From Oscillospiraceae bacterium (GTDB taxonomy: Bacteria > Bacillota > Clostridia > UMGS1810), in the NCBI GenBank assembly GCA_015068825.1, contig SVJU01000017.1:1-42905 (forward strand): a stretch of DNA of 42,905 nucleotides, read 5' to 3'. Position numbers and translations under genes: made by a program. Under the pieces are notes generated by a model. That model was not told where the DNA came from. It did no database searches and saw only the letters and a list, made by a program, of their open reading frames with translations. Below are positions 4,981-34,698 of the stretch, in pieces; the first letter of the stretch is position 1; the number at the start of each line of letters is the position of its first letter.

Positions 4981-7900
4981 TTATTTTTCAACGATTACAA
5001 TATCGTCAAAACACACATTATAATTTGCAGGATTCCCACCGTCAATATTGGCTGTTATGCCACGCATATTAACCCTTGCATCAGATGGTGCAGAATCAAG
5101 TGTAAATTCAAATTCGATGTTTTTCCAGGAATCACCAATACCTGTGAATTTTTTGTACACCTTAAAATCTGCATTTGTTTTTGAAAGCATATAGAACTGA
5201 AGGTCTGCATCAGAATTAACAGCATTTTCGATTTTTACACGCATTCTTAAAATATAGTTCTTTCCTGTTTTTAATTTTGATGCAAAGCCGGTCTGTTCCA
5301 AACCAATCCAGTCAGCAGTTCTTCCGGATACTTTTAAAAAATTGTTTCCGTCAGATTCTTTTTCGTAAGAAATTTTAACCACTTTAGGAGTTTTTTCTGC
5401 AAGTGCCCATACTCCTTCGGTATCCATAGTTCCATTTGACAAAATATTTTTTGTTACTTCATCTTTTGATGCATTGGAAGGTTCACCTTGTTTTACTGAT
5501 GAAGAAGGTGTTGATGGTGTAGTTGCTACCGTCGAAGATGCAGGTTTTGTATCAACAGGAACCAATTTTATATCATCTATACAAAGTTTTGTTGATGCAT
5601 CAAATGCACCCGAGTGCTCTCTTATAGAAAATACTGTATCCGATGGCCATGTTGTAAATTCTAATTTAGACGAATCAAGCGTGATTGAAAAATCCTGCCA
5701 TTCACTTGTTATATTATTTATTTTGGAATACAGGTTATATTTTTCATACTGACCTTTATAGCTTCCTGCAATAACATAAACCTCGCATGTTGTTCCGCTT
5801 GTTCCATCTACCTTTATTTTACCTGTTACCTGATATTTTCCAACACCATATTTATTTAGTTTATCAGCAATACCTGTTTGTTCAATTCCTTCGTAAGAGC
5901 CTACTCTGTCTGACAAAGAAAGGTATTTGTTATCCCCTACTGTTTCAACAGTAATTTTACCTTTTGCTCCTATATTTTTCTTCCACACATTTGTATCATC
6001 GCAGTTAGAGTTTGCAAGTATATTTTCTCCCTCATCTGTTTTTGACGATACTGGTACAGTCGGTGCAGTTGGCACAGGTGCTACCGTTGTGCCAGATGGC
6101 ATATCTGTCCCCTTTTTCCATGGTCCAAATTTCGTATCAGTAATAATTAATTTTGCACCATATTCAATTTTATCCTTAACAAAATCATAGTTTGAGTTTA
6201 ATCCCGAATTATAATTAAACTGATTATATGCAATATATTTTCTACCAGCATTATTGATATAAGTATTGCTATCAAGCTTAATCAGATACTGTGGAAACTT
6301 ATTTTTAGATGCTACTGTATTCATTACTACATTTCTTGAATAGCTTGAAAAATCAACATTAAGAAGGTTAGCTCCTATAAAGATGTTATCCTTTACAACA
6401 AAGTTTTCTGTTCTGTTGATTGAATGCCAGCCTTTAATATCAGCCGCGGTTTCTTTGTTAGGTCTGTTATCCTGTCCCCAACCAAATCCTGAATAGCGCG
6501 AAATATTATTTGCAAAAGTAATATTTTTCATTATTGCACTGTTTGAGTTAGACTGATTCATAAAGAATTCGTAAGAATATGTTGCATATTCTATAAGATT
6601 GTTTGTATAAGTAACATTTTCTTCAACAACAATCTTATCGGATTCACCTTTCCACTGATTTGTAAGTGCAGCATCATAAATCTGATATACATAGCAATGG
6701 TCTACCAGAATATTCTTACAACTTTCCCAGAACTCAATACCATTACCCCATCTTGTTTTTGAAGATGTGGGACTTCCGCCTGTACCACCAATCCAGCCAA
6801 CTTCACAATTTGTAACGCTGATATTTTCTACATTTGCAAATTTAACACCATGCCAGCCTGTGTATTTCATACAAATGTTATCAATTCTTATATCATGTTT
6901 ATTATCTGCAATAAATATTGAATATTCTGGCGCGATTTCAATATTTTTAAAAGCAGAACCAGGATTTCCTTTGTCATAATATAAAAGAATTGGAACCCCA
7001 TTATATTTTTCCTGCATAAAGTTAAGGTTTTTGTTAAGTTCGTCTTTTGAGAATACTTTTTGAGACATTTTATCATAATCGAACTGCAAAAAACCTACAT
7101 TTGAAAAGCTTTCAGTAGTTGTCCATACATTTGGTGTTTCTGTTTCTATCCAAAGCGAGGCATCTGCATAGTTTTTAGCACTACCGTATAATTTTGGCTT
7201 TTCGCCTTCGCCGTAAGCTGCATAGGTTACACCGCTCTTACAAAGAACAGTAGCACCTCTCCAAAGTCCGCCTCTTTCAAACAAAACTGCATCGCCATTG
7301 TTATATTGCATACTGTTTACTTTATCAATTGTTTTCCATGCTTCTTCTGGCGACAAACCCGAGTTGTTATCATCGCCATTATTTGATACATAGTATTTTG
7401 TGCCTGTAATCACAAGATTGTCTTTTGTGTTTAAAATTTCATCTTTTAGTGCTTCTGCTTTTTTATTAGCTTCGTCTTCTGTTTTTTTAGCTAATTCTTT
7501 ATCGTAATTGTCGTTTGTGATTTTCCATGCCTCAACATAAGTATCACCTTTGTCAAAAACGGTTGAGGTATGTGAAGTTGATGCTTCAATTACCTGATTA
7601 TATGCCCAGTGACTTTCATCAATATCGTTAAATTTTGATGTTTTTGCACCATAGTAAGACACATTAACAGGATATCTTTTTGTTGCACGGTTAACCATTG
7701 TAACAGCCTCTGCTCTTGTGATGGAAGCATCCGGACGGAAAGTGCCATCTTCATACCCAGCAATAAGACCTGATCTTGCAGCTTTTACAATATCGTTGTA
7801 TAAAGGATGAGATTCATTCACATCAGCAAACGAAACTTCTTTTTCTTCAGGTAAAATCGAAATGTTTTTTACAAGATATACAAATTCTGCTCTTGTAATA

Positions 7901-9273
7901 GGTGTATTTGGATTAAAACTATTTTCAAAGTAAGACAGTGCACCAACACTTTCAAGGTATGCTACATTGTCATAATACCAGTCGCTTTTGTTTATATCAG
8001 GATAGTTAGATGTATATGCGTCTTTAAATGATGCTTCATCTGCCATAAGTCTTGAAACAATAGCGCAAGTTTCTGCTCTTGTAATATTCCCCTGAGGACT
8101 AAATGAGCCATCTGCCATACCTTTTATGTACGCATTATGTGATGCTTCTTCTTCATTGTAAAGACATTTTTTCATACTTACATTATCTACATAAAAATCA
8201 GCAGTATCTTCTTTATCAACTCCACAAACTCTTAGTGATGCATTTGAAAGTTCACCAGTCCACCCAATTCTGAATGAGCCATTAATTTTCTGCCAGTTTT
8301 CTGTAATATGAAAAGATGAATATGTATACTCATTGCCATTAATAACCAATGACAATTTATAGTCTTTATATTTACTTTGGCTATCCGCGTCATTTTTGAT
8401 GAATGCAAATACCCTGTAATCTCCGGGGCCATTTTTCAGAAGTATATCTTTTACATCCTGTGAAACACAAGATGCATTTGACTCCCTATTTGATATTTTT
8501 ACATATTTTTCGCCATCATTTGCTCCACCTGATACAAAGCTTAAAGTGCTGCCGCTTACTGCTTGCCAAGCATCACTTTCATTTTCAAAACTTGGATCAA
8601 CTATAAGTTCTTGTGTTTTATCCATTTTATCAAAGTCTTCAAAAACAGAAACATCTTCAACAATGCCTCTTAAAGCATCATTTGCTTTTTTTCTGTCTTC
8701 TTTGATTTTTTCATTAAGCGCAACATCTTCGGGTGTTGTAGGGTCATTTTTATGCACAGAAATAGATTTTACATAACATCTTTCCTCTGCAAGTGCATTT
8801 GCATCCTGCGCATTAAACGGCATAAAGTGGAACTGATTGAATCTTTTTGATTCGCCACTTTCAGGAGCAATTTTCCACGAAACCCTATGCCACACATCTG
8901 ATGCCGCATCTGCTAAAACATTTGTCATTTTGCCATCTAAAGAAGGTCTGAATTTAACCGATGTTCCATTATCGGTTTTATAATATTCAACCATTGCATA
9001 TTGATATTCAGATGCATCAATATATTCAGGAATTACATAGTCAAGTACAACTGTTGTACCTGATTGTCTGTTTGAATATCCTGGTTTAATAATAATAACA
9101 TTTTGTGAATCAAACTGACCATATTCCATTTGCCCTCTATGAACAGTTCCTTTATTGACAATAGTTTCAAGATCAAGCAAAATACTATCGCCCGAAGCAA
9201 AAACCACGCCGCAGTGAAAAGTTTGTAATAATAAAATTACTACAAGAAAAATTCCAAAAACTTTTCTTTTCAT
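4981..9273 (-). CDS. Secreted SLH-domain protein with parallel beta-helix and carbohydrate-binding-like modules
   Basis: 1430 residues; probably a cell-surface polysaccharide-acting protein. Residues 1-27 form a signal peptide (Lys/Arg, long Leu/Val/Ile core, Ala-Ser-Gly). Residues 28-175 are a beta-sandwich-like module. Residues 222-370 are a second, CBM4/9-like module opening Asp-Pro-Ser-Phe-Glu-Asn. Three SLH repeats follow at about 378-560, each with Thr-Arg-Ala-Glu, which normally bind pyruvylated secondary cell-wall polymer. A parallel beta-helix of the pectate-lyase/NosD type spans about 625-1045, beginning Tyr-Tyr-Val-Ser-Asn-Asn-Gly-Asp-Asp. Two further CBM-like modules sit at about 1080-1240 and 1272-1430, joined by Thr/Pro/Ser linkers. 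I cannot identify catalytic residues, so lyase or hydrolase activity is inferred. The ATG has GGGAGGAAAG upstream. It is the downstream paralogue of 9441-14285 but carries its own promoter and terminator. Confidence 0.88.
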   Translation of the reverse strand: MKRKVFGIFLVVILLLQTFHCGVVFASGDSILLDLETIVNKGTVHRGQMEYGQFDSQNVIIIKPGYSNRQSGTTVVLDYVIPEYIDASEYQYAMVEYYKTDNGTSVKFRPSLDGKMTNVLADAASDVWHRVSWKIAPESGESKRFNQFHFMPFNAQDANALAEERCYVKSISVHKNDPTTPEDVALNEKIKEDRKKANDALRGIVEDVSVFEDFDKMDKTQELIVDPSFENESDAWQAVSGSTLSFVSGGANDGEKYVKISNRESNASCVSQDVKDILLKNGPGDYRVFAFIKNDADSQSKYKDYKLSLVINGNEYTYSSFHITENWQKINGSFRIGWTGELSNASLRVCGVDKEDTADFYVDNVSMKKCLYNEEEASHNAYIKGMADGSFSPQGNITRAETCAIVSRLMADEASFKDAYTSNYPDINKSDWYYDNVAYLESVGALSYFENSFNPNTPITRAEFVYLVKNISILPEEKEVSFADVNESHPLYNDIVKAARSGLIAGYEDGTFRPDASITRAEAVTMVNRATKRYPVNVSYYGAKTSKFNDIDESHWAYNQVIEASTSHTSTVFDKGDTYVEAWKITNDNYDKELAKKTEDEANKKAEALKDEILNTKDNLVITGTKYYVSNNGDDNNSGLSPEEAWKTIDKVNSMQYNNGDAVLFERGGLWRGATVLCKSGVTYAAYGEGEKPKLYGSAKNYADASLWIETETPNVWTTTESFSNVGFLQFDYDKMSQKVFSKDELNKNLNFMQEKYNGVPILLYYDKGNPGSAFKNIEIAPEYSIFIADNKHDIRIDNICMKYTGWHGVKFANVENISVTNCEVGWIGGTGGSPTSSKTRWGNGIEFWESCKNILVDHCYVYQIYDAALTNQWKGESDKIVVEENVTYTNNLIEYATYSYEFFMNQSNSNSAIMKNITFANNISRYSGFGWGQDNRPNKETAADIKGWHSINRTENFVVKDNIFIGANLLNVDFSSYSRNVVMNTVASKNKFPQYLIKLDSNTYINNAGRKYIAYNQFNYNSGLNSNYDFVKDKIEYGAKLIITDTKFGPWKKGTDMPSGTTVAPVPTAPTVPVSSKTDEGENILANSNCDDTNVWKKNIGAKGKITVETVGDNKYLSLSDRVGSYEGIEQTGIADKLNKYGVGKYQVTGKIKVDGTSGTTCEVYVIAGSYKGQYEKYNLYSKINNITSEWQDFSITLDSSKLEFTTWPSDTVFSIREHSGAFDASTKLCIDDIKLVPVDTKPASSTVATTPSTPSSSVKQGEPSNASKDEVTKNILSNGTMDTEGVWALAEKTPKVVKISYEKESDGNNFLKVSGRTADWIGLEQTGFASKLKTGKNYILRMRVKIENAVNSDADLQFYMLSKTNADFKVYKKFTGIGDSWKNIEFEFTLDSAPSDARVNMRGITANIDGGNPANYNVCFDDIVIVEK

Positions 9274-9440: not shown

Positions 9441-12400
9441 TTATTTTTCAACAATTACAACATCATCGAAACAGATATTATAATTTGCAGTATTACCATT
9501 ATCAAACTTTGTAGTAGCTGCCCTGAAGTTTACCCTTACATCAGACGGAGCTGAATCCAAAGTAAATTCGTATTCGATGTTTTTCCAGGAATCACCGATA
9601 TTTGTAAACTTTTTATAAACTTTGAATTCTGCATTAGATTTTGCAAGCATATAAAATTGAAGTTCACCCTGAGAATTAACATCGTTTTCAATTTTAACAC
9701 GCATTTTTAAAACATAAGTTTTTCCAGCCTTAAGTTTTGATGCAAATCCTGTTTGCTCCATACCAATCCAATCAGCAGTTCTGCCAGCCATTTTTATATA
9801 GCTGTTACCGTCAGATTCTTTTTCTATTGTAAGCGATACAGCTTTTGGTGTTTTATCAGCTAATGTCCAGTTTCCATCTTTATCCATTGTACCATTTAAA
9901 AGAATGTTTTTTGCAATTTCATCTTTTGACACATTAGATGCTTCACCCTTATTTGAAGATGGATTAGATGTAGATGTTGAAGGTGCTGGTGCAGATGATA
10001 AAGATGCTGAATTTTTGGTGTTAACAGGAATTAATTTAATATCATCTATGCAAAGTTTGGTTGATGGATCAAATGATGATGAAGCTTCACCAATTGCAAG
10101 TGTTGTATCAGAAGGCCATGTTGTAAATTCTAATTTTGATGTATCTACTGTTATATTAAATTCGCTCCACTCACAAGATAACCCCTGAACTTTTGTATAT
10201 GTATTGTATTTTTCATAAGTGCCTTTGTAGCTTGGTGCAAGAATGTAAACTTCTGCAACAGTATCAGCTAATGCACCGTCCATTTTAATTCTGCCTGAAA
10301 CCTCATATGTTCCGGGTCCATACTGATTTAGTTTATCAGCGATTGCACCGATTTCAATTCTTTCATATGCTCCTACTCTGTTTGCAAGTGATAGATACTT
10401 GTTTCCACCCTCTTCTTCAACTGTAAGCTTACCTTTTGCGCCTGTGTTCTTCTTCCACAATTCTGTGTTATCACAGTCAGAGTTTGAAACTAAGTTTTCG
10501 CCTGTAGCATTAGAAGGCTTGGATGCCGGTGTAGAGGTTGAAGGTGTAGTTGTAGGTGTAGGTGTAGCCGAAGATGAAGGTGCAGGATTTTTTGTATTAA
10601 TTGGAATTAGCATTATATCATCTATACAAAGCTTAGTTGATGTAGCAAACGATGATGAGGCTTCACCAATTGCAAGCGTTGTATCAGAAGGCCATGTTGT
10701 AAATTCTAATTTTGATGTATCTACTGTTATACTAAATTCGCTCCACTCATCAGATAACCCCTGAACTTTTGTATATGTGTTATATTTTTCATAAGTACCT
10801 TTGTAGCTTGATGCAAGAATATAAATTTCTGCAGTACATGGTGCCATTGCACCTTCCATTTTTATTCTGCCCAAAACCTGATATGTTCCAGGTCCGTATT
10901 GATTTAGTTTATCAGCGATTGAACCAATTTCAATTCTTTCATATGCTCCTACTCTGTCTGCAAGTGTCAGATACTTGTTGCCGCCTTCTTCTTCAACTGT
11001 AAGCTTTCCTTTTGCGCCTGTATTCTTTTTCCATAATTCTGTGTTATCACAATCAGAATTTAGAATTAAATTTTCGCCTGAAGGTTTAGTTGCTTGCTCA
11101 TTTGAAGAAGTTGTTGCTTCTTCTTTTTTATCTGGTTCAAACTTAGAATCTGTAAGTATAAGTTTTGCATTAAGGTCTACATTATCTTTTATAAAATCAT
11201 AGTTTACACCCTGTTTAGATGAATATTTATTGAAGTTGTAATCAACAAATGCTTTACCACTATTATTTATATAAATGTTGTTATTAAGTTTAATCAAATG
11301 CTGTGGAAGCATATTTTTAAATGATTTTGTACCACCCGGAATATTATTTGAATAACTTGCATAATGAACATTTGTAAGTTTTGTACCAAGGAAGATATTG
11401 TTTTCAACAACAAAGTTTTCTGCTCTGTTTAACGAACTCCAGCCTTTAATATCGGCAGATGTATCTTTGTTAGGTCTGTTATCCTGTCCCCATCCATAAC
11501 CTGTATAACGGCAAATATTATCGTTAATTTTAACATTTTTCATTATTGCGCTGTTTGAGTTTGGTTGATTCATAAAGAATTCAAATGCATAAGTACAGTA
11601 ATCTACCAGGTTGTTTGTATATGTAACATCCTCTTCTACAACAACACCACCGGTTTCGCCTTTCCACTGATTTGTGAATGCTGTATCATATACCTGATAA
11701 ACATAACAATGGTCAACCAAAACATTTTTACAATTCTGCCAGAACTCAATACCATTACCCCATCTTGTCTGGCCTCCTGTAGGACTTCCGCCTGTTCCGC
11801 CAATCCAGCCAACTTCACAATTTGTAATTCTTACATTTTCTACATTCGCAAATTTTACGCCATGCCAGCCTGTATATTTTATACAAATATTATCAATTCT
11901 TATATCCGATTTGTTACTCGCAATAAAGATTGAATATTCGGGGGCAATTTCAATGTTTTTGAATTTTTCGCCCGGATTTCCGCCGTCATAATACAAAAGA
12001 AGAGGAGCTGAGCTGTATTTTTCCTGCATAAAATTGTAATTTTTATTAAGCTCCTCTTTTGAATATATTTTCTGCGACATTATTTCGCCGTCAAACTGTA
12101 TAAAGCCTACATTTGAGAATTTTTCTTTAGTTTTCCACACATTTGGTGTATCGGTTTCTAACCAGAAATCAGTATCAGCATAGTTTCTGTCAGAACCATA
12201 TAGCTTTGGTTTTTCACCTTCGCCATAAGCAGCATAAGTTACGCCACTCTGACAAAGAACAGTTGCGCCTCTCCAGAGTCCCCCTCTTTCAAAAAGAACC
12301 GCATCACCATTAGAGAATTTAAAGTTATTTACTTTATCTATTGATTTCCATGCGTCGTTTGGAGATAATCCTGAATTGTTATCATCACCGTTATTTGAAA

Positions 12401-14285
12401 TATAATATTTTGTACCTGCAATTTCAAGATTATCTTTTGCATTTAAAATAGTATCTTTTAATGCATTACCTTTTACTATTGCTTCACTTTCTACTTTTTT
12501 AGCAAGCTCTGCATCATAGTTTTCGGCTGTAATCTTCCACGCTTCCAACAACTTATCGCCTTTATCTATAATTGTTGCATCGTGGTTTGTTGTTGCCTCA
12601 ACAATCTGACTATATGCCCAGTGTGAATCATTAACATCGCTAAAAGGAGTAACTTTTGCGCCATAATAAGTTGCTGTAACAATATTTCTGCCAATTGCAC
12701 GGTTTACAATTGTACAAGCCTCTGCTCTTGTTATGCAAGCGTCAGGATGGAAAGTTCCATCTTCATATCCTGCAACAAGTCCTGTTTTTGCAGCATTTAC
12801 AACGTCATTATACAATGGATGTGATAAATTAACATCACTAAAGCTAACATTACCAGAACCTGTTAATTTAGAAATGTTTTTAGCAATGTATACAAATTCT
12901 GCTCTTGAAATTGGCGCATTAGGATTAAAGTTTCCTTTAAAATATGTAAGAAGTCCTAAAGCTTCAAGGTACGCTATATTATCATAATACCAGTCTGTTT
13001 GTTTTATATCAGGATAATTTGAAAGATAAACGCCCTTAAAAGCTGCTTCATCATTCATAAGTCTTGAAATAATTGCACACGTTTCAGCTCTTGTGATATT
13101 ACCCTGAGGAGCAAATGTTCCGTCAGAATTACCTTTCATATAAGGAGTATGCTTTTCTTCAACCTCATTATAAAGACATTTAACAAGGCTGATTTTATCA
13201 ACATAAAAATCAGAAAGGTCTGTTTTATCAACACTTGAAATTTTTATAAATCCGCCGGTAAGCTGACCATTCCAGGTAAGTCTTAATGCGCCGTTGATTT
13301 TTTGCCACTCATCCTTAATATGATAGGTTGAACAGCCAAATTCTCTTCCGTTTAAGGAAATCGCAAGCTTATAGTCTTTATATGTATTCGGTGCATCTTT
13401 ATCTGTTTTGATGTAAGCTGTTAATCTGTAATCGCCGGGGCCGTATTTATTAAGAACATCTTTTAAATTCTGCGTCATACCGGAATATTCGCCGTTTCTT
13501 CCGGTTATCTTAGCATATTTTTTGCCGTCATACGCATCGTCTGATGTAACAAATTCAACCGTTGAATTATAACCTGTCCATACTTCGCTTTCGTTTTCAA
13601 AGCTCGAATCAGCAACAAGCTCGCTTGTTTTGTCAAGCTTATCCAAATCTTCAAAAATTGCAAGTTCTTCATCAACACCGCGAAGCGACTCATAATTTTT
13701 AGAAATATCTGCAACAATCTGTTCGTTAAAAGCAATCTCTTCCTCTGTTAAAGGATTTTCTTTATAAAACTCGATTGATTTAATATAGCACACTGCATCA
13801 GAAACCGAATTTGCGTCCTGGTCGCCAAACGGGAAAAAGTGAAACTGATAAAGCGCAGTAGTTTCGCTTCCTTCGGGAATCATTTCCCAAACAGCTCTGT
13901 GCCATCTATTGCAAGTACCGTCAAATGTAATATATTTCATTTTACCATTTAAAGACGGTCTGAATTTCATAGTAGTATCATTATCTGTTTTGTAATATTC
14001 AATTACAGCATATCTGTAATCATTAATAATCGGTTTGTCAGGCAAAACATAATCAAGAACAGCAGTAGTCGATGCCTGTCTGTCTGTAAAACCGGGTTTA
14101 AAAATAAGAACCTTTTGTGAATCGAATTCCCCGTATTCCAAAGAACCTCTCATCACATTTCTTTTTTGTGCAAGTTTTTCCATGTCCAAAGAAATTTTTT
14201 CATTCTCGGCAAACACACTGCCAAACTGCACCATCTGTAATATAAAAATTACCAAAAGTGCAATGCTTATAAGTCTTTTGCGCAT
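9441..14285 (-). CDS. Secreted SLH-domain protein with parallel beta-helix and duplicated binding module
   Basis: 1614 residues, paralogue of the 1430-aa protein and colinear with it almost residue for residue through the first 650 positions. Order: signal peptide 1-26; beta-sandwich-like module to about 175; CBM-like module about 222-370; three SLH repeats about 378-560 (Thr-Arg-Ala-Glu, Ser-Arg-Ala-Glu, Thr-Arg-Ala-Glu); beta-helix about 625-1045; a CBM-like module from residue 1070 and a near copy from 1262; and a final CBM-like module about 1455-1614. Long Ser/Thr/Pro linkers join the C-terminal modules. The extra module is the main difference from the neighbour. It is probably exported and wall-anchored to bind, and perhaps cleave, plant polysaccharide; catalytic residues are not identifiable by eye. 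The start ATG follows AAGGAGG. Confidence 0.88.
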   Translation of the reverse strand: MRKRLISIALLVIFILQMVQFGSVFAENEKISLDMEKLAQKRNVMRGSLEYGEFDSQKVLIFKPGFTDRQASTTAVLDYVLPDKPIINDYRYAVIEYYKTDNDTTMKFRPSLNGKMKYITFDGTCNRWHRAVWEMIPEGSETTALYQFHFFPFGDQDANSVSDAVCYIKSIEFYKENPLTEEEIAFNEQIVADISKNYESLRGVDEELAIFEDLDKLDKTSELVADSSFENESEVWTGYNSTVEFVTSDDAYDGKKYAKITGRNGEYSGMTQNLKDVLNKYGPGDYRLTAYIKTDKDAPNTYKDYKLAISLNGREFGCSTYHIKDEWQKINGALRLTWNGQLTGGFIKISSVDKTDLSDFYVDKISLVKCLYNEVEEKHTPYMKGNSDGTFAPQGNITRAETCAIISRLMNDEAAFKGVYLSNYPDIKQTDWYYDNIAYLEALGLLTYFKGNFNPNAPISRAEFVYIAKNISKLTGSGNVSFSDVNLSHPLYNDVVNAAKTGLVAGYEDGTFHPDACITRAEACTIVNRAIGRNIVTATYYGAKVTPFSDVNDSHWAYSQIVEATTNHDATIIDKGDKLLEAWKITAENYDAELAKKVESEAIVKGNALKDTILNAKDNLEIAGTKYYISNNGDDNNSGLSPNDAWKSIDKVNNFKFSNGDAVLFERGGLWRGATVLCQSGVTYAAYGEGEKPKLYGSDRNYADTDFWLETDTPNVWKTKEKFSNVGFIQFDGEIMSQKIYSKEELNKNYNFMQEKYSSAPLLLYYDGGNPGEKFKNIEIAPEYSIFIASNKSDIRIDNICIKYTGWHGVKFANVENVRITNCEVGWIGGTGGSPTGGQTRWGNGIEFWQNCKNVLVDHCYVYQVYDTAFTNQWKGETGGVVVEEDVTYTNNLVDYCTYAFEFFMNQPNSNSAIMKNVKINDNICRYTGYGWGQDNRPNKDTSADIKGWSSLNRAENFVVENNIFLGTKLTNVHYASYSNNIPGGTKSFKNMLPQHLIKLNNNIYINNSGKAFVDYNFNKYSSKQGVNYDFIKDNVDLNAKLILTDSKFEPDKKEEATTSSNEQATKPSGENLILNSDCDNTELWKKNTGAKGKLTVEEEGGNKYLTLADRVGAYERIEIGSIADKLNQYGPGTYQVLGRIKMEGAMAPCTAEIYILASSYKGTYEKYNTYTKVQGLSDEWSEFSITVDTSKLEFTTWPSDTTLAIGEASSSFATSTKLCIDDIMLIPINTKNPAPSSSATPTPTTTPSTSTPASKPSNATGENLVSNSDCDNTELWKKNTGAKGKLTVEEEGGNKYLSLANRVGAYERIEIGAIADKLNQYGPGTYEVSGRIKMDGALADTVAEVYILAPSYKGTYEKYNTYTKVQGLSCEWSEFNITVDTSKLEFTTWPSDTTLAIGEASSSFDPSTKLCIDDIKLIPVNTKNSASLSSAPAPSTSTSNPSSNKGEASNVSKDEIAKNILLNGTMDKDGNWTLADKTPKAVSLTIEKESDGNSYIKMAGRTADWIGMEQTGFASKLKAGKTYVLKMRVKIENDVNSQGELQFYMLAKSNAEFKVYKKFTNIGDSWKNIEYEFTLDSAPSDVRVNFRAATTKFDNGNTANYNICFDDVVIVEK
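10014..10502 (-). repeat. Intragenic tandem repeat, unit 2
   Basis: 489-bp unit encoding the second copy of the CBM-like module (residues 1262 onward) in the 1614-aa protein. It lies at a 576-bp (192-codon) period from unit 1 and matches it along its whole length, with long identical DNA stretches. Confidence 0.85.
10590..11078 (-). repeat. Intragenic tandem repeat, unit 1
   Basis: 489-bp unit encoding the first copy of the module (residues 1070 onward). By eye the two copies differ at about 20 of 163 residues. The 1430-aa paralogue has only one, more divergent, version. Confidence 0.85.
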
Positions 14286-20503: not shown

Positions 20504-20536
20504 AAATCCCTGAAAGTTTTTAGCTTTCAGGGATTT
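20504..20536. terminator. Bidirectional terminator
   Basis: Perfect 13-bp stem AAATCCCTGAAAG / CTTTCAGGGATTT with a 7-nt loop, between the convergent uppP and lyase genes. Confidence 0.9.
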
Positions 20537-20538
20537 TT

Positions 20539-21429
20539 TTATATTCTTTCAATCATTCTGTTATAAAGAGTTTTAAGTTCAACCTTTTCTGATTCTGTAA
20601 GTGATGTGCACGGTTTTCTTATTGTATCACTCTTTATAATACCGAGCTCTTTTAACATATATTTTTCGCATGCTATATAAAATTCAAGCGACTGGTCTTC
20701 GTACCATGTAAGTGGTAATAATTTTTCGAACATATCTCTTGCTTTGTCTAATTCGTTATTGTTAAAATACTTGGTCATCTGATTAAATTCGCCACAAAGA
20801 AGAACTCCTGGCATAATACCGGTTGCGCCGTTTAAAAATGCATCTATGGCAAAAATTCCGCCGTTACCGCTATAACATTTTAATTTGCCATTAGTCTTTT
20901 CTACAATAGCTTTCATTTTTCTCATTGGAATTGGACATTCAACTTTGATATAATCAAACTGTTTAATATCGTTAAATGCCGAAATAAGCATATCAAGACT
21001 CATTGTAACACCTGTTGAACGAGGGTTGTCCTGAATCATTACAGGTAAATCAACTGCTTCTGCAATGGTTTTAAAATATTCAACCAATGCATCTCCCTGT
21101 GGTGTTGAAAGTGCAGGTGGATACAAAATAAGTCCATCAGCACCTGCTTTTTTTGCGCATTTTCCAAGTTCAATACAATCTGCAACAGAATTTTCAACAA
21201 TTCCTATAAGAGTTTCTACCCTTTTGTCGACATCTTTTAAAAATGCTTTTATTGTATCTAATTTTTCATAAAACGATAATTTATAAGGCTCACTGTTAAA
21301 AGCAAAAAGGCAAATACTTTCACAGCCCTTATCAATTATAAAATCAACTATATTTTTAAGACCATCAAAGTCTATTGAATAATCCTCATTAAAAGGAACA
21401 TTCACAACAGGACATACTCCGTTATACAT
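20539..21429 (-). CDS. Divergent DHDPS/NAL-family lyase-like protein
   Basis: 296 residues with the (beta/alpha)8 fold and length of the dihydrodipicolinate synthase/N-acetylneuraminate lyase superfamily. A lysine in Tyr-Ile-Lys-Val-Glu near residue 165 fits the Schiff-base position. Two signatures are altered: the Gly-Thr-Thr-Gly-Glu phosphate/carboxylate loop is replaced by Ala-Phe-Asn-Ser-Glu near residue 43, and the Tyr-Asn-x-Pro tyrosine is replaced by Gln in Ile-Gln-Asp-Asn-Pro near residue 135. So the chemistry may differ from a normal aldolase (dehydratase or other keto-acid lyase). Last gene of a five-gene operon; 21 bp after the SDR with AAGGAG upstream of the ATG. A second, canonical family member is the first gene. 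Confidence 0.82.
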   Translation of the reverse strand: MYNGVCPVVNVPFNEDYSIDFDGLKNIVDFIIDKGCESICLFAFNSEPYKLSFYEKLDTIKAFLKDVDKRVETLIGIVENSVADCIELGKCAKKAGADGLILYPPALSTPQGDALVEYFKTIAEAVDLPVMIQDNPRSTGVTMSLDMLISAFNDIKQFDYIKVECPIPMRKMKAIVEKTNGKLKCYSGNGGIFAIDAFLNGATGIMPGVLLCGEFNQMTKYFNNNELDKARDMFEKLLPLTWYEDQSLEFYIACEKYMLKELGIIKSDTIRKPCTSLTESEKVELKTLYNRMIERI

Positions 21430-21450
21430 TTTATTATCACTCCTTAAATT

Positions 21451-22209
21451 TTAGAAAACTGTTTTTCCACCGTCAATTACAATCTCTGCACCCGTTGTAT
21501 AAGATGCCTCATCAGATGCAAGCATTACTACCGCACCAGCAATATCATCGGCTTTACCTATTCTTCCAAGAGGAATACCATCTACACAGTTTTTATAATA
21601 ATCAGGATCGCTTAATACATCATCGTTAAAATCTGTATGTATGCTTCCGGGAAGAACAGTATTCGCTGTTATGCCATAAGGTGCAAGCTCAAGTGCAAGA
21701 CCTTTTGTAAGCATACCAATAGCTGCTTTTGATACACAGTAATGAACACGGTTAGGTGCTGTTTCAAGCTGTGATATGGAAGAAATATTTATAATTCTTC
21801 CCCATTTTTTATCCATCATAAGCTTAGCTGCATTCTGACTGCACAAAAAATATCCTCGTGCGTTTGTTTCCATAATTTTATCCCATTCATCTACTGATAT
21901 TTCCATAAATGGTGTACGGTAAAGAATAGCTGCATTATTAACCATAATATCAATATAACCAAACTTATCTTTGATTTGTTTGAACATATTTTCTATCTGA
22001 CTTACATCCGAAGTATCGCAAAAAACTGTATAAGCTTTTCTGCCAAGCTTTTCAATCTCCAAAGCAGTTTCCTTAAGCGCATCACTATTACTTCTTCCGT
22101 GAACAATAACATCACAGCCTGCCATTGCAAGTTTAATTGCAATAGCTTTGCCTATTCCTCTGCTTGAGCCTGTTACTAAAGCAAGTTTTCCGTTTAAATC
22201 AAACATCAT
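21451..22209 (-). CDS. Short-chain dehydrogenase/reductase (SDR)
   Basis: 252 residues, classical SDR. Cofactor motif Thr-Gly-Ser-Ser-Arg-Gly-Ile-Gly near residue 14, Asn-Asn-Ala-Ala near residue 90, catalytic Ser in Asn-Ile-Ser-Ser-Ile-Ser near residue 143 and Tyr-Cys-Val-Ser-Lys near residue 157; the C-terminal Ile-Asp-Gly-Gly is typical. The His-Gly-Arg-Ser after the second strand may favour NADP, but this is uncertain. The start ATG at 22209 overlaps the stop of the upstream gene (ATGA), implying translational coupling; GAGGTGAT is the ribosome site. In this operon it plausibly oxidises a sugar or reduces a keto-sugar acid. Confidence 0.9.
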   Translation of the reverse strand: MMFDLNGKLALVTGSSRGIGKAIAIKLAMAGCDVIVHGRSNSDALKETALEIEKLGRKAYTVFCDTSDVSQIENMFKQIKDKFGYIDIMVNNAAILYRTPFMEISVDEWDKIMETNARGYFLCSQNAAKLMMDKKWGRIINISSISQLETAPNRVHYCVSKAAIGMLTKGLALELAPYGITANTVLPGSIHTDFNDDVLSDPDYYKNCVDGIPLGRIGKADDIAGAVVMLASDEASYTTGAEIVIDGGKTVF

Positions 22210-22901
22210 ATCACCTCATTAAAATCGTGACTTGTAACTATTTTTCCTTTGTATTCAAGATATTCTTCCAAAAGCTTATCTGATACTTCTCTGTTTACAG
22301 TAAATCCTGCAGGAATTTTTTTGTTTAGATTATCGTGAACAAAAATTGTATCACCAACAAACAAAGTATCACCCACTTCGACAGACATACTGCCGTTTGT
22401 GTGACCGCCACGCTTTTTAAGTTTTATGTCACCAACCATTAATTCATCATCAAAAGTAACAACTTTTTTGTCTTTTAAAAATTCTTTTGATTCTGCAAGA
22501 AATTCTTTTAAATGATTTTCTTCACTATAAAACATATCATATTCCGTTTTTGTCATATAAAATACAGCATTTTTAAAATATTTTGCACCTGATATATGGT
22601 CGTAATGTGCATGAGTAATAAATACTTTTGTGATTTTATCACAATCAACACCAATTAAATCAAGATTTTCTTTTATAGCGTGTTCATCGTCATATCTTGC
22701 CCAGTCATCAACGCTTGATTTTGTTTTATTGGCAACATCAATATCTTCAATACCTGTATCTATTAAATAGTATTCATCGCCCTTGTTAAGAAGAAAAGCA
22801 TGACAGCCTATTTTTGTTACTTCTTCAAAAAGTCCATTTTTATAAATAACACTGTTCGCACACTCAATATGTGCTGTTTTTAAAAGTTTAATATTATACA
22901 T
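22206..22901 (-). CDS. Metallo-beta-lactamase-fold hydrolase (lactonase-like)
   Basis: 231 residues. The zinc motif is His-Ala-His-Tyr-Asp-His near residue 97, followed by Gly-Gly-His-Thr-Asn-Gly-Ser near residue 168 and a final His in Thr-Ser-His-Asp-Phe near residue 225; Asp in Val-Gly-Asp-Thr-Ile bridges the metals. The domain arrangement is closest to the AHL-lactonase/glyoxalase II branch of the superfamily. It overlaps the upstream dehydratase gene by 8 bp and the downstream SDR by 4 bp, so its product is made together with them. Sugar-lactone hydrolysis would fit the operon; that assignment is inference and other esters are possible. Confidence 0.82.
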   Translation of the reverse strand: MYNIKLLKTAHIECANSVIYKNGLFEEVTKIGCHAFLLNKGDEYYLIDTGIEDIDVANKTKSSVDDWARYDDEHAIKENLDLIGVDCDKITKVFITHAHYDHISGAKYFKNAVFYMTKTEYDMFYSEENHLKEFLAESKEFLKDKKVVTFDDELMVGDIKLKKRGGHTNGSMSVEVGDTLFVGDTIFVHDNLNKKIPAGFTVNREVSDKLLEEYLEYKGKIVTSHDFNEVI

Positions 22902-24057
22902 TTTCTACTTTAAACCTCTGTTCTGTACCCGGTTTGTATGGGTATTTTTCTATTATATCGTCTGTTAAGTGAATTCCAAGACCTGGTTCGTCAGGAACAA
23001 TAATTTCGCCGTTTACCATTTTAATTGGCTGATTTAAAAGTTCTTCACGAAGCGGATTTGCAATCTGCTGGAATTCACAGATAAGTGCATTTGGAATTGC
23101 AGATAGTAAATGAAGATGTGCTGCAAATGATGCACCTGAACGGAATACATGAGGAGCAACTGTAATACCGTTTAATGCAGCATATTCAGCTGCTTTTTTA
23201 ACTTCACCGATACCACCTGCATGAGTTACATCAGGCTGAATGATATCAAGACATTTTTTATCAATAAGCTGTTTATATTCAAATATTGAACATCCGTTTT
23301 CACCACCTGCAATAGGTGTAGTACCACTTGCTTCTCTAACTTGTGCATAAACATCAAGTTCATCTGTTCTGCAAGGTTCTTCTATGAACATAAGTTTATA
23401 TTCTTCAAGTGCTTTAACAACCTGAATAGATTCTTTTGCAGACCATGCAAAAGGAACATAACCCTGTCCGCAGTCGATTGCCAAATCAAAATCATATCCC
23501 AAAGCATCTCTTAAAGCTTTTACTTTATCAACATCTCTTTTTGCGTTATATCCGCCTCTGATTTTAACTGCTGTAAAACCTCTTTCAAGATAGCTGTTAA
23601 CCTCTCTTATTAAAGAATCGTTAGGTTGTTCCATACCACCACTTGCATAAGTTCTTATTGCTTTTCTGAATTTTCCGCCAAGTAGTGAATGAACCGGTAC
23701 GCCAAGTGCTTTTCCTTTTAAATCCCAAAGTGCGTTTTCGATACCGCTGATAACACCCATAGCAATACCACGACGACCCCAGTTTGCACCAAGCTTATAC
23801 ATTTTGTCAAATAATACATTGATTTCAAATGGATCCTGACCGATTAAGGTGTTTGCAAGGAAGTTACAAATAGATTTTGCAGCTTCTGGAATATAGTGAC
23901 CTGTGCCCATTTCGCCAAGGCCATACATGCCTTCATCTGTCCACACTCTTACAAGTGATGTATGCCATACCTTTACTTCACCGCCAGACCATCCCCACTG
24001 TTCGTCAGGCTTGTACTCATAAGATAATAAAATTGGTTCTACTTTTGTAATTTTCAT
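22894..24057 (-). CDS. Enolase-superfamily sugar-acid dehydratase (mandelate racemase type)
   Basis: 387 residues. The N-terminal capping domain is followed by the modified TIM barrel. Catalytic features: Lys165-x-Arg167 on strand 2, metal ligands Asp195 (Asp-Cys-Gly-Gln), Glu226 (Ile-Glu-Glu-Pro) and Glu253 (Gly-Gly-Glu-Asn), and the Asp276/His303 general-base dyad (Gln-Pro-Asp, Ala-Pro-His). This places it in the mandelate racemase subgroup, whose members mostly dehydrate acid sugars to 2-keto-3-deoxy acids. Which sugar acid it uses cannot be told by eye (galactonate, rhamnonate, fuconate and others are all possible). It starts 13 bp after the canonical lyase gene with AAAGGAG upstream. It provides the central chemical step of the operon. 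Confidence 0.9.
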   Translation of the reverse strand: MKITKVEPILLSYEYKPDEQWGWSGGEVKVWHTSLVRVWTDEGMYGLGEMGTGHYIPEAAKSICNFLANTLIGQDPFEINVLFDKMYKLGANWGRRGIAMGVISGIENALWDLKGKALGVPVHSLLGGKFRKAIRTYASGGMEQPNDSLIREVNSYLERGFTAVKIRGGYNAKRDVDKVKALRDALGYDFDLAIDCGQGYVPFAWSAKESIQVVKALEEYKLMFIEEPCRTDELDVYAQVREASGTTPIAGGENGCSIFEYKQLIDKKCLDIIQPDVTHAGGIGEVKKAAEYAALNGITVAPHVFRSGASFAAHLHLLSAIPNALICEFQQIANPLREELLNQPIKMVNGEIIVPDEPGLGIHLTDDIIEKYPYKPGTEQRFKVENV

Positions 24058-24070
24058 TTTCTTTTCTCCT

Positions 24071-25006
24071 TTACTTTATATATTCTTTTACTAAAGCATC
24101 ATAAATTGCTTTCATTTCTTTTTTTGCTTCTTCAGCTTTTATTTTAAGTGAAACAGGAATTGCTTCTCTCCCTTCTCCGAGAGGCATATTAAGTGCATCA
24201 CTTAAAACTCTGTATCCATAAGGGAAAGTAAATCTATTTACAACATTTATAAGTTTTATAAGGTCTGTCTGACATTTTAAACCTATTTCAGTTCCCTGAT
24301 TATTTTTAATAAAGCCAATAATTTCCGGCATTAAATATGTAATTGCTGAGAATACTCCATCACCGCCAAGTGAAAGTGTGCCGTAAAGACATGCATCAAG
24401 TCCTGTCAGCATAGCAACATCAGGTCTTTTTTCGTCTCTTAATCCTATTTCTGTTGTAATCTGCTGCAAATCATTCCAACTGTTTTTAAAGCCTTTGAAA
24501 TTATCAAATTCGAGTAATTTTTCAAAATTAGATACAGATACCGGATTTGTACACTGTGGAATGTTATATCCTACAACAGGTAAAGATGTGCTTGTAATTA
24601 CATCTTTGTAATATTCAAAGATTTCTTCATCGTTTAATGTAAAATAATAAGGTGGTGCAATAAGTATACCGTCTGCACCGATTTCTTCTGCGTATTTGGT
24701 ATATTTTTTTGCAGTATAGCTATCACCTGCTGTTGTACCACAGATAAACTGTTTTTCACCTTTCATTGCATCTTTAACAGTTTTCATAAGGTATGTGTTT
24801 TCTTCAAAGCTAAGTCTTGAAAACTCACCTGTTGAACCACATACAACAAGACCGGTCAAATCTTTAGATTTCATTGTTTTTTCCACTTGTTTTGCAAGTG
24901 TATCGTAATCAACTTCCCCATTTTCTTTAAACGGAGTTAATACAATACCATAAATACCTTTAAAAATTCTTTTTTCCATTTCCTTAAAATCGGATAAATC
25001 CGACAT
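24071..25006 (-). CDS. DHDPS/N-acetylneuraminate lyase-family aldolase
   Basis: 311 residues from the ATG at 25006, which has AAGGAG just upstream; in-frame Met codons up to 25036 lack a good ribosome site. Unlike its operon partner, it keeps the family signatures: Gly-Ser-Thr-Gly-Glu near residue 60, Tyr-Asn-Ile-Pro near residue 150 and the Schiff-base lysine in Gly-Phe-Lys-Asn-Ser near residue 175. Likely a 2-keto-3-deoxy sugar-acid aldolase that cleaves the dehydratase product to pyruvate and an aldehyde; a biosynthetic DapA role is unlikely in this context. First gene of the operon that continues to 20539 and divergent from the regulator at 25176. Confidence 0.88.
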   Translation of the reverse strand: MSDLSDFKEMEKRIFKGIYGIVLTPFKENGEVDYDTLAKQVEKTMKSKDLTGLVVCGSTGEFSRLSFEENTYLMKTVKDAMKGEKQFICGTTAGDSYTAKKYTKYAEEIGADGILIAPPYYFTLNDEEIFEYYKDVITSTSLPVVGYNIPQCTNPVSVSNFEKLLEFDNFKGFKNSWNDLQQITTEIGLRDEKRPDVAMLTGLDACLYGTLSLGGDGVFSAITYLMPEIIGFIKNNQGTEIGLKCQTDLIKLINVVNRFTFPYGYRVLSDALNMPLGEGREAIPVSLKIKAEEAKKEMKAIYDALVKEYIK

Positions 25007-25112: not shown

Positions 25113-25141
25113 TTGACAAATAACACTAAAAGTTTTATAAT
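25113..25141 (+). promoter_or_regulatory. Consensus promoter of the sensor-HTH regulator
   Basis: TTGACA (25113-25118), 17 bp, TATAAT (25136-25141). Confidence 0.82.
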
Positions 25142-25175: not shown

Positions 25176-26249
25176 ATGAACATAATTGTTCAAAAAGGAT
25201 ATAACTCGAACACAACATTAAAAAAGATGTTAACTGGTATTGGCGATAAAACTCCAAGCCCTATAAAAATTTATTCTTCTGAAACCGAAATAAACAACAA
25301 TGAAAGTATTGCTATTGTTATAGGAATTGATAAAGACTGGAAAAGAAAAGAGTGCTGCAACCTGTTTAACAGAGGTATACATCCTATTGTTGTATTTCCG
25401 TCTGATGATATAACTTCTCTCCCATTCAGCTATATTACAACAGATGATTTTTTTACATTTTATCATCTTACAAAACTTTTAATATCACATAGCAAAAAGA
25501 GAGTTGTAATTGCAGGTGTAAACCCCGCATCCGCAACCGACAATATAAAACTAAATGGCTTTAAGCAAGCACTTTCTGACTGTAAGATAGAATTTTGCGA
25601 CGACTATGTTTTTATGAGTAACGACAATATATCTGAATGTGTAAAAGGCATTATTGATGCAAAAGATTCTTTTGATTGTGTTATTTGTGTAAATGATATT
25701 ATTGCAATTCTTACTTCAACACTTATTAATAATTTGGATAATTATAATATAACGGGTTTTAGCGGTATGATGTGCACAAAATATACAAAACCTAAAATCA
25801 CCACAATAGGAATTGATTACTATCAGGTTGGATGTGCAATAGTTGAAGCTTACACTACACTTAAAAAGAATGATTTTTTGTTAAAGCAATCTTTCTTTAT
25901 AAAAAGCAATCTGATGCTTGGCGAAACAACTCCCGCATTAATTAACGAAAGTTTTAAAAGTGATAATCTTATCAATACAAATAGTTACAATAAGCAACTT
26001 AAGGTTTATGACGATATTGTGTTCAAGGAGCTTGATACAATAGAAATTCTGCTCCAGAAAGCTGATGAAATAGATTTTAAGATTATAAAAATGCTTGTAG
26101 AAGAAAAAACTTATGAAGAAATAAGCGCCGGGCTTTTTTTGTCGATTACACCTTTAAAATACAGAATAAATAAAATGCTAAAATTAACACAGTTTTCCTC
26201 AAAAAGCAAACTTGTATCAGTTTTGAAGAAATATAATATGTTTGTGTAA
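25176..26249 (+). CDS. Transcriptional regulator: LacI-type sensor domain with C-terminal LuxR-like HTH
   Basis: 357 residues, ATG with GGAGGTG upstream. Residues about 1-260 resemble the periplasmic-binding-protein-like effector domain of LacI/GalR regulators: a hydrophobic strand Ile-Ala-Ile-Val-Ile-Gly-Ile, Tyr-Ile-Thr-Thr-Asp-Asp, Lys-Arg-Val-Val-Ile-Ala-Gly, Leu-Asn-Gly-Phe-Lys-Gln-Ala, Val-Ile-Cys-Val-Asn-Asp-Ile, and Thr-Thr-Ile-Gly-Ile-Asp. There is no N-terminal HTH and no signal peptide. The last 60 residues fit a GerE/LuxR-like HTH: Ile-Lys-Met-Leu-Val-Glu-Glu-Lys-Thr-Tyr-Glu-Glu-Ile, then Thr-Pro-Leu-Lys-Tyr-Arg-Ile-Asn and Lys-Leu-Val-Ser-Val-Leu. Domain order is thus inverted relative to LacI. 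It is divergent from the sugar-acid operon, its probable target; effector unknown. Confidence 0.78.
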   Translation: MNIIVQKGYNSNTTLKKMLTGIGDKTPSPIKIYSSETEINNNESIAIVIGIDKDWKRKECCNLFNRGIHPIVVFPSDDITSLPFSYITTDDFFTFYHLTKLLISHSKKRVVIAGVNPASATDNIKLNGFKQALSDCKIEFCDDYVFMSNDNISECVKGIIDAKDSFDCVICVNDIIAILTSTLINNLDNYNITGFSGMMCTKYTKPKITTIGIDYYQVGCAIVEAYTTLKKNDFLLKQSFFIKSNLMLGETTPALINESFKSDNLINTNSYNKQLKVYDDIVFKELDTIEILLQKADEIDFKIIKMLVEEKTYEEISAGLFLSITPLKYRINKMLKLTQFSSKSKLVSVLKKYNMFV

Positions 26250-32559: not shown

Positions 32560-34604
32560 TTATTTTTTAATAAAAACGCATGCGACATCACCCGCATTAA
32601 CCAAAAGTTTTTTATCATTTGTTTTTCCGCCAAATACAATCTTGTCAAATTCGCATGATATATTTATATCATATTCATTTGTATTAAATATGTATTTAAG
32701 TTCACCGTCAGGTGTTTTGTTTATTGTGGTGATAATTCCATCACCATAGTTATCCATAGCAGGAATCTCACAAAGTACATTTTTTATAAAACTTTTCCAC
32801 CCTTTTTCACCAAATAAGGCATAACTGTAACCAATACTTGAACCAAAAAGAATAATTTGACCTTTTCCCGATGCAACTTTTAAAATAGCAGGTACATTAT
32901 CGTCAAATGTTGCAATAACTTTTGCATTTTTAACCTCATATTCAGTTTTATAAGGCTTAATTGTAACCTTTTCACCATCTAATACAAATGTTTCGTTTTT
33001 ATCTTTATAGTCACGAACACGGCTATTCCATCTGGCATCAAAAAGCACATCAAAATCAATGTGATTTGTAGCAAGCCATGTGTTTTTTTGTCTTAATCCA
33101 AAGCCTTCATCCAAAAGAAGTATTCCACCATTATCAGCAAAAGATTTAAGAGTTTTTTGACTATTGTTATCGAGCATTGCTGCGTATGGAAAATATGCAA
33201 CTTTGTAATCGTTAATTTTTTCTATGTCGCGGCTATCAATAAAATCTATGCGATAGCCTTCTTCAATAAGAAGCTTATACATACCATATACTGCTTTATT
33301 ATAATAATTTACAGGATTTTTACATTTTCTTATTGCAAAAAGCTCTCTGTCGTGATCTTCAATATTAGACATCATAAGTGATGAATAATCATACACAAAA
33401 ACAATATCAGCTTTTTCAGGCTCGGCATTTGAAAAAATCTTTTTGTTATCAGCAAGAATTTTTCCAACTTCGCTTACAACTTTTGTAATTTGCTTATTGC
33501 TGCCATCCATATTTAAAAATCCGGCAAGATTATTTTCAAGTCCAAGTCTTTCAGCACGCATCTGCCAGTATAAAAGCCCTTTTGCACCATGTGATATAAT
33601 ACTCCATAGCATATATCTTAATCTTTCTGGTTTTTCAGGTTCATACCACGAACCCCAGTCTGAATACACCTCATGCACAAAATAGTTTTTGTCAATTCCC
33701 CTTAAATAGTCACATAGCATTGGTGACATAAATTTAATCTGTTCTTCCGAATGAAATGCACTTGCAAGCGGAAATGATGTACCATAAAAATCCACTGCTT
33801 TTGACACTTCATAATCATCGCTGTTATCATCAAAACTATCCTGAAAAACTGCGGCAATTCCAACATGGCTCATAATAGGTCTTTCTTTGTCAATTTTTCT
33901 TATTTCATCATATACAAATTTTAATTTATCATGTAATGCTTTTCCTGCACGCCATTTTCTGTAGTTATAAAAATCCCAATATCCGTGTGGGACTCCTGAA
34001 TAAGGAATAGATTCAAAACTTTCTTCCGCAAGCCCAAAGAATTCATTGAAATTTTCAATTGTTTTATATTCATCTTTCAGATATTCTCTCCATCTTTTTT
34101 ACAATGTTCACACGAACAATCCCCTACTGGACGGGTTCTTGGTTCATTCCATACATTCCATAATACAAGAGATGATTGCCTATGGTAGCGTTCCGTAAAA
34201 ACATTTACAAATTTTTTTGCTCTTTCTATGACCTTATCATTATCAAAGCACGGTAGCCATCCACCTACATAAAACGCGCCATGGCTACTTGGAACAATCG
34301 GTGTTCCATCAGCATTTCTTCGGGTGCCGTCATATTTGTCAAATATGTACTGAGGCGCATTTTCAATCAAAAATTTAAATATTACTTTTTTGTTATGCTT
34401 TTGCGCAAGTTCAAAGAGCTTATCTACATCATCAAAATAGTAATTATCTTCACCGCGCTCGTTTTGTCTCCACTGAACGCGTATCTGCATAGTATCAATT
34501 CCAAGTTCATCCATTTTCATAATGTCCTGCTCCCACTCAGAAGGTAGTGGTGTAGGCGCTCTGTAATACTGAGTGCCATATACAATATTTTCAAAATATT
34601 TCAT
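32560..34604 (-). pseudogene. GH42-type beta-galactosidase gene with a single frameshift
   Basis: Start ATG at 34604 (AAAGGAAG upstream). The first frame stops at 34077, and the -1 frame continues to 32560. The junction is the A6 run at 34095-34100 (minus strand). Adding one A gives Cys-Lys-Lys-Arg-Trp-Arg-Glu-Tyr-Leu and an unbroken protein of about 680 residues. The first part holds the TIM-barrel start (Tyr-Gly-Thr-Gln-Tyr-Tyr-Arg), the acid/base in Trp-Asn-Val-Trp-Asn-Glu-Pro and the GH42 Cys-x-Cys-x-x-Cys zinc segment. The second part holds a likely nucleophile in Phe-Val-His-Glu-Val, then a trimerisation-type glutamine-amidotransferase-like domain and a small beta domain. It would release galactose (or arabinose-like sugars) from oligosaccharides. 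Everything else is intact, so the break is recent, a sequencing indel, or bypassed by slippage. Confidence 0.82.
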
Positions 34605-34668
34605 ATTAATTACTTCCTTTACAATAATTAAAATTACCAAAATAAGTGAACTGTATTTGTTATAAATC

Positions 34669-34698
34669 ATTATATCATAAACTTTTTATAATTTTCAA
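34669..34698 (-). promoter_or_regulatory. Promoter of the GH42 gene
   Basis: Minus strand: TTGAAA (34693-34698), 18 bp, TATAAT (34669-34674) preceded by TGA (extended -10). Confidence 0.65.

Follow-up and report, generated by a model that had tools for sequence, protein, structure and literature searches.

Does a compact gene cluster of an Oscillospiraceae bacterium encode a complete route from a free sugar to pyruvate that dispenses with a kinase? An earlier note on this DNA had proposed that an SDR, an MBL-fold hydrolase, an enolase-superfamily dehydratase and a DHDPS-type aldolase act one after the other in such a route. We analyzed the whole stretch of DNA concerned, hereafter the window, i.e., positions 1 to 42,905 on the forward strand of contig SVJU01000017.1 (assembly GCA_015068825.1; a 2.0-Mb genome in 62 contigs).

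Organization of the operon

Five genes with uninterrupted reading frames, all of them on the minus strand, make up the operon, and each product exceeds the Pfam cutoff of its family. The first gene codes for DHDPS1 (24071-25006; Pfam DHDPS, 158 bits), a class I aldolase-type protein resembling KDG aldolases. It is followed by genes for an acid-sugar dehydratase of the MR group of the enolase superfamily (MR; 22894-24057; Pfam MR_MLE_N and MR_MLE_C), an MBL-fold hydrolase that is a candidate sugar lactonase (MBL; 22206-22901; Pfam Lactamase_B), a classical SDR of the adh_short type that probably prefers NADP (21451-22209; Pfam and NCBIfam PRK07231), and DHDPS2 (20539-21429; Pfam and PDB matches), a member of the class I aldolase family that lacks the catalytic Tyr and resembles L-2-keto-3-deoxyarabonate (L-KDA) dehydratases. 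The operon and the families that had been described thus stand, with the correction that there are five genes, two of which encode different DHDPS paralogues.

The reported overlaps of 8 bp between the MR and MBL genes (22894-22901) and of 4 bp between the MBL and SDR genes (22206-22209) were confirmed. At the other two junctions the genes are separated by 13 and 21 bp, with an AGGAG-type ribosome site visible at each in the raw sequence. As stated before, none of the five operon genes codes for a kinase or a transporter. Downstream of the DHDPS2 gene, scoring of both strands revealed a terminator-like hairpin with a stem of 13 to 15 pairs and a T-rich tail (20504-20536, minus strand).

A candidate regulator gene is divergently oriented upstream of the operon (25176-26249, plus strand). 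Its product has a LacI/periplasmic-binding-like sensor domain, similar to the effector domain of CcpA, and a helix-turn-helix at the C terminus (Peripla_BP_4 and HTH_24, both weak matches), and it is devoid of the N-terminal helix-turn-helix of LacI. A 12/12 match to a sigma-70 promoter is located 5′ of this gene (25113-25141, plus strand). A search for operator-like palindromes upstream yielded only weak, AT-rich repeats.

Conservation in a second genome

By scanning genome contigs, we identified a second cassette through an MR protein with 91% identity, in a metagenome-assembled genome from roe-deer rectum, "Clostridia bacterium RGIG4552." One of its contigs (L007) harbors a divergent gene for an AraC-type regulator followed by the DHDPS1 and MR genes, and another one (L014) starts in the tail of the MR gene and continues with the MBL, SDR and DHDPS2 genes and a sixth gene. 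The gene order is thus identical in both genomes, with a single contig break, inside the MR gene, in RGIG4552. This recurrence excludes chance, and since the regulator differs there, the five genes represent a conserved unit. The sixth gene, at positions 2589-3098 of contig L014, codes for a divergent xylose-isomerase-like TIM barrel and is cut by the contig end; a search of the Oscillospiraceae source genome, run without a positive control, returned no match for it.

The two hosts belong to different orders, the source order being represented by 16 genomes and that of RGIG4552 by a separate set of 95, and their AlaRS proteins are 59% identical. Identities between the cassette proteins are 63% for DHDPS1, 91% for MR (over 267 residues), 61% for MBL, 72% for SDR and 73% for DHDPS2, and the third codon positions of the cassette genes are 39 to 60% identical. 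Recent transfer as the cause of the 91% identity of MR was ruled out, as third codon positions are 60% identical. The combination of a 91% identical protein with nearly saturated third codon positions argues for unusually strong constraint on this one catabolic enzyme, across orders whose AlaRS proteins have diverged this far, and for the absence of recent exchange.

Searches of 391 genomes of the class, 398 genomes of the phylum, 149 relatives of RGIG4552, its 95-genome order and viral contigs turned up no additional cassette. The absence of a third cassette from about 1,000 genomes indicates that it is rare or poorly sampled.

Active sites and closest relatives of the five enzymes

The SDR passed the NCBIfam model PRK07231, "glucose 1-dehydrogenase," with 236.8 bits for a cutoff of 215, and its RGIG4552 counterpart scored 234.9 bits. 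This is a broad model; those for FabG, KduD, gluconate 5-dehydrogenase and L-rhamnose dehydrogenase gave nearly equal scores. The assignment of the SDR to the first step rests on that model and could be wrong. Residues N116, S144, Y157, K161 and R39 are invariant in both copies, and the conservation of R39 suggests that the enzyme uses NADP(H).

For MBL, the three best NCBIfam families in both genomes are lactonases, namely, AiiA, YtnP and 4-pyridoxolactonase, with weak matches to glyoxalase II and RNase Z far behind. The seven metal ligands, H97, H99, D101, H102, H167, D184 and H225, which include the HxHxDH motif, are invariant in both copies. The protein is not recognized as AiiA itself: it scored 68 bits with the AiiA equivalog model, the cutoff of which is 375, and Phe (F187) occupies the position of the AiiA Tyr194. 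An AlphaFold model computed from the single sequence had a mean pLDDT of 50. No lactonase of the SMP-30 family was detected in the source genome, and the identical search was positive in 8 of 14 control genomes. The use of an MBL-fold protein as a sugar lactonase had been presented as unusual. The lactonase profiles and the metal site are in keeping with that role, and unusual it would be; nevertheless, the fold has a precedent in UlaG, the L-ascorbate-6-phosphate lactonase, which likewise opens a sugar-derived lactone (PMC3219644, PMC10340364). UlaG differs in that its substrate is phosphorylated, and UlaG-type models were absent among the matches of MBL.

The five best NCBIfam profiles of MR are all acid-sugar dehydratases (arabinonate, galactonate, mannonate and talarate; 236 to 184 bits, far below the cutoffs), and the first nonsugar profile is that of muconate cycloisomerase, at 112 bits. 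Alignment identified the active site of the MR group, with K165-x-R167, D195, E226/E227, E253, the D276-H303 pair and E328. In a tree of 15 sequences, the MR proteins of both cassettes formed an isolated pair, with a branch length of about one change per site, and had no supported join to a characterized enzyme. The expectation that the dehydratase would side with acid-sugar dehydratases rather than with nonsugar enzymes is thus borne out by the profiles, but the protein is close to no characterized member. We considered that MR might be a D-galactonate dehydratase (DgoD), and rejected this assignment because MR did not group with DgoD and reads DCG where DgoD has DFH after strand 3. The DgoD-like gene of the source genome is at a separate locus (L004). 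These results do not point to a particular sugar. Second among the PDB matches of MR, with 34% identity, is 4ggb/4hpn, the galactarolactone cycloisomerase of Agrobacterium.

The two DHDPS proteins are 24% identical over 163 aligned residues. We compared them with E. coli DapA and YagE and with segments of the KDG aldolase of Picrophilus and the L-KDA dehydratase of Azospirillum. DHDPS1 has the full class I aldolase set, i.e., S58-T59-G60-E61 of the GSTGE loop, Y121, Y147 and the Schiff-base residue K174. Its closest PDB relative is the KDG aldolase of Picrophilus torridus (4uxd, 109 bits), with which it shares the YNIPQ.TN motif, the GSTG loop and the catalytic Lys and Tyr. Judging from these residues, DHDPS1 is the canonical aldolase of the operon.

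DHDPS2 retains the Schiff-base residue K162 together with E164. However, Q133 takes the place of the catalytic Tyr, the next residue is Asp, and TGE is replaced by NSE (loop FNSE), so that of the class I aldolase features the Lys is present and the catalytic Tyr and the GxxGE loop are lost. Its top PDB matches include 3dz1 and the L-KDA dehydratase of Azospirillum (3fkk/7c0c). In L-KDA dehydratase, loss of the Tyr and of the loop accompanies loss of aldol cleavage, and the key residues of the Azospirillum enzyme are Lys171, Glu173, Gln143 and Glu200 (PMC9795676). The two proteins have in common the Schiff-base Lys, the KxE motif, the Tyr-to-Gln and Asn-to-Asp replacements and the lost GxxGE loop, and DHDPS2 thus matches the equivalents of Lys171, Glu173 and Gln143. 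In contrast, their overall similarity is low (87 bits), and the stretch taken to hold Glu200, GEEA in the Azospirillum enzyme, reads GNGG in DHDPS2, as it does in 3dz1. Because Glu200 is not evidently conserved, we call DHDPS2 Tyr-less and L-KDA-dehydratase-like rather than an L-KDA dehydratase. The loss of the aldolase Tyr suggests that its reaction on a keto-deoxy acid is probably not cleavage but dehydration or some other conversion. An assignment as 5-keto-4-deoxyglucarate dehydratase was not supported either, as the KdgD models scored 57 and 87 bits, with a cutoff of 374.

The nearest plasmid-borne relatives of DHDPS2 are about 30% identical to it. These proteobacterial proteins (L016, L018) are encoded in similar plasmid clusters with genes for an SDR, an Asp/Glu racemase, an amidohydrolase and amino-acid/peptide ABC transporters. 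The annotated plasmid neighborhoods of the MR and DHDPS2 relatives contained neither the cassette nor a clue to the substrate.

A putative nonphosphorylating pathway and its alternatives

Our leading reading, to which we give slightly less than an even chance, is that the operon encodes a nonphosphorylating oxidative route for an aldose in which SDR, MBL, MR and DHDPS1 act in sequence and DHDPS2 performs a noncleaving reaction. The aldose, probably released from the plant cell wall, would be oxidized to a lactone by the SDR, probably with NADP+, and the MBL-fold protein would open the lactone to the aldonate. MR would then dehydrate the aldonate to a 2-keto-3-deoxy acid, which DHDPS1 would cleave through a Schiff base (K174) to pyruvate and an aldehyde. 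DHDPS2 would probably catalyze an L-KDA-dehydratase-like side reaction or branch on a keto-deoxy acid, without cleavage. What the sequences establish are the genes, their families, the catalytic residues and the conserved unit, whereas the substrate, the cofactor, the sequence of steps and all activities are inferred. The families fit the stepwise route of the earlier note; the route had assumed one aldolase, however, and left out the second, Tyr-less and dehydratase-like DHDPS. Consistent with the leading reading, candidates for an aldose dehydrogenase, a lactonase, an acid-sugar dehydratase and an aldolase/dehydratase are encoded together, and we also counted in its favor the hemicellulose-type genes within the window, which code for an acetyl xylan esterase and pieces of a GH42 protein. 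Against it, none of the enzymes reached the cutoff of a substrate-specific (equivalog) pathway family, and MR sits on its long branch, the SDR model is broad, MBL has the Phe in place of the AiiA Tyr, and DHDPS2 has the GNGG stretch. The operon also lacks a transporter gene and a semialdehyde dehydrogenase gene to follow the dehydratase branch.

In the main rival explanation, which is rather less probable, a sugar acid or the corresponding lactone, rather than a free sugar, would be the starting compound. MBL would open the lactone, whether imported or made, MR would dehydrate the acid, and the SDR would act late, either as a keto-deoxy-acid dehydrogenase or reductase (similar to KduD or to an L-KDR/L-KDF 4-dehydrogenase) or by reducing the aldehyde that is formed, with DHDPS1 and DHDPS2 acting on different keto-deoxy intermediates. 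Two intermediates would make the presence of two DHDPS genes easier to explain, and the NADP(H) preference suggested by R39 would suit a reductase. SDR-type keto-deoxy-acid dehydrogenases have been published (PMC6336799), and the KduD, gluconate 5-dehydrogenase and FabG models come close to the top SDR model, with 213 bits for TIGR01832 kduD on contig L014. Nevertheless, that top model is glucose 1-dehydrogenase, above its cutoff, and the translational coupling of MBL and SDR suits consecutive dehydrogenase and lactonase steps.

Two other explanations appear improbable. The oxidative uronate pathway of the Agrobacterium type proceeds by uronate dehydrogenase, lactone handling, galactarolactone cycloisomerase and 5-keto-4-deoxyglucarate dehydratase, and the operon might have built such a pathway from equivalent folds. 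The composition of SDR, MR and DHDPS-type proteins is identical and the 4ggb/4hpn match of MR points the same way, but the tree leaves MR unjoined to 4ggb, the SDR is a classical adh_short protein and not an epimerase-like uronate dehydrogenase, and the KdgD scores are far too low; we rate this the least probable explanation. Only marginally better placed is a cassette for nonsugar compounds, in which MR would racemize, epimerize or cycloisomerize a different alpha-hydroxy acid and the DHDPS proteins would be lyases or hydratases of a nonsugar keto acid. The plasmid neighborhoods of the DHDPS2 relatives, with their amidohydrolase, Asp/Glu racemase and amino-acid/peptide transporter genes, would agree with it, whereas the acid-sugar dehydratase profiles of MR far outscore those of racemases and cycloisomerases, and DHDPS1 is KDG-aldolase-like.

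To return to the oxidative aldose route, aldose dehydrogenase, lactonase, acid-sugar dehydratase and aldolase/dehydratase make up the published composition of nonphosphorylative pathways, and this functional set, without a kinase, is common to the operon and to the pentose and deoxyhexose pathways known as Route I (Dahms) and Route II (Weimberg) (PMC6336799, PMC9795676). In contrast to those routes, the operon has an MBL-fold lactonase candidate, combines an intact aldolase with a Tyr-less DHDPS, lacks a semialdehyde dehydrogenase and occurs in gut Clostridia, which are presumed anaerobes. Another point of comparison is the L-fucose operon of Campylobacter jejuni, which differs in its amidohydrolase lactonase and UxaA-type dehydratase. 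In this bacterium, which also lives in the gut, the NADP+-linked FucX makes the sugar lactone first, but unlike the operon described here that of C. jejuni includes a permease gene, fucP (PMC10746189). As far as its sequences tell, the operon resembles published nonphosphorylative pathways, but its proteins fall into none of the specific families known from them. What is new is that one conserved operon brings together a lactonase candidate of the MBL fold, an aldolase and a Tyr-less DHDPS, a combination of which our literature search of open full texts found no published description.

We consider doubtful a stronger proposal, i.e., a branched pathway of gut Clostridia with an MBL-fold lactonase for free sugars, a Tyr-less DHDPS of new specificity beside a KDG-type aldolase, and an MR enzyme that founds a new, strongly conserved subfamily. 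If the proposed route is correct, an MBL-fold lactonase and a nonaldolase DHDPS enzyme would join the toolkit of kinase-less sugar breakdown, and such a route would operate in gut Clostridia, for which few have been described to our knowledge. Since small size and solubility are predicted for each of the five proteins, the idea lends itself to direct testing with libraries of sugar acids.

Two other features of the window were observed. A GH42 beta-galactosidase gene appears to be split (32560-33873 and 34077-34670, minus strand), which may reflect a pseudogene or an assembly error; Pfam identified the C-terminal part, and the other piece, a frame of its own, looked N-terminal by eye. The window also encodes two adjacent and very similar giant secreted proteins (4981-9273 and 9441-14285, minus strand), the first with S-layer homology and CBM_4_9 domains according to Pfam, and the second resembling, by eye, a paralogue of it.
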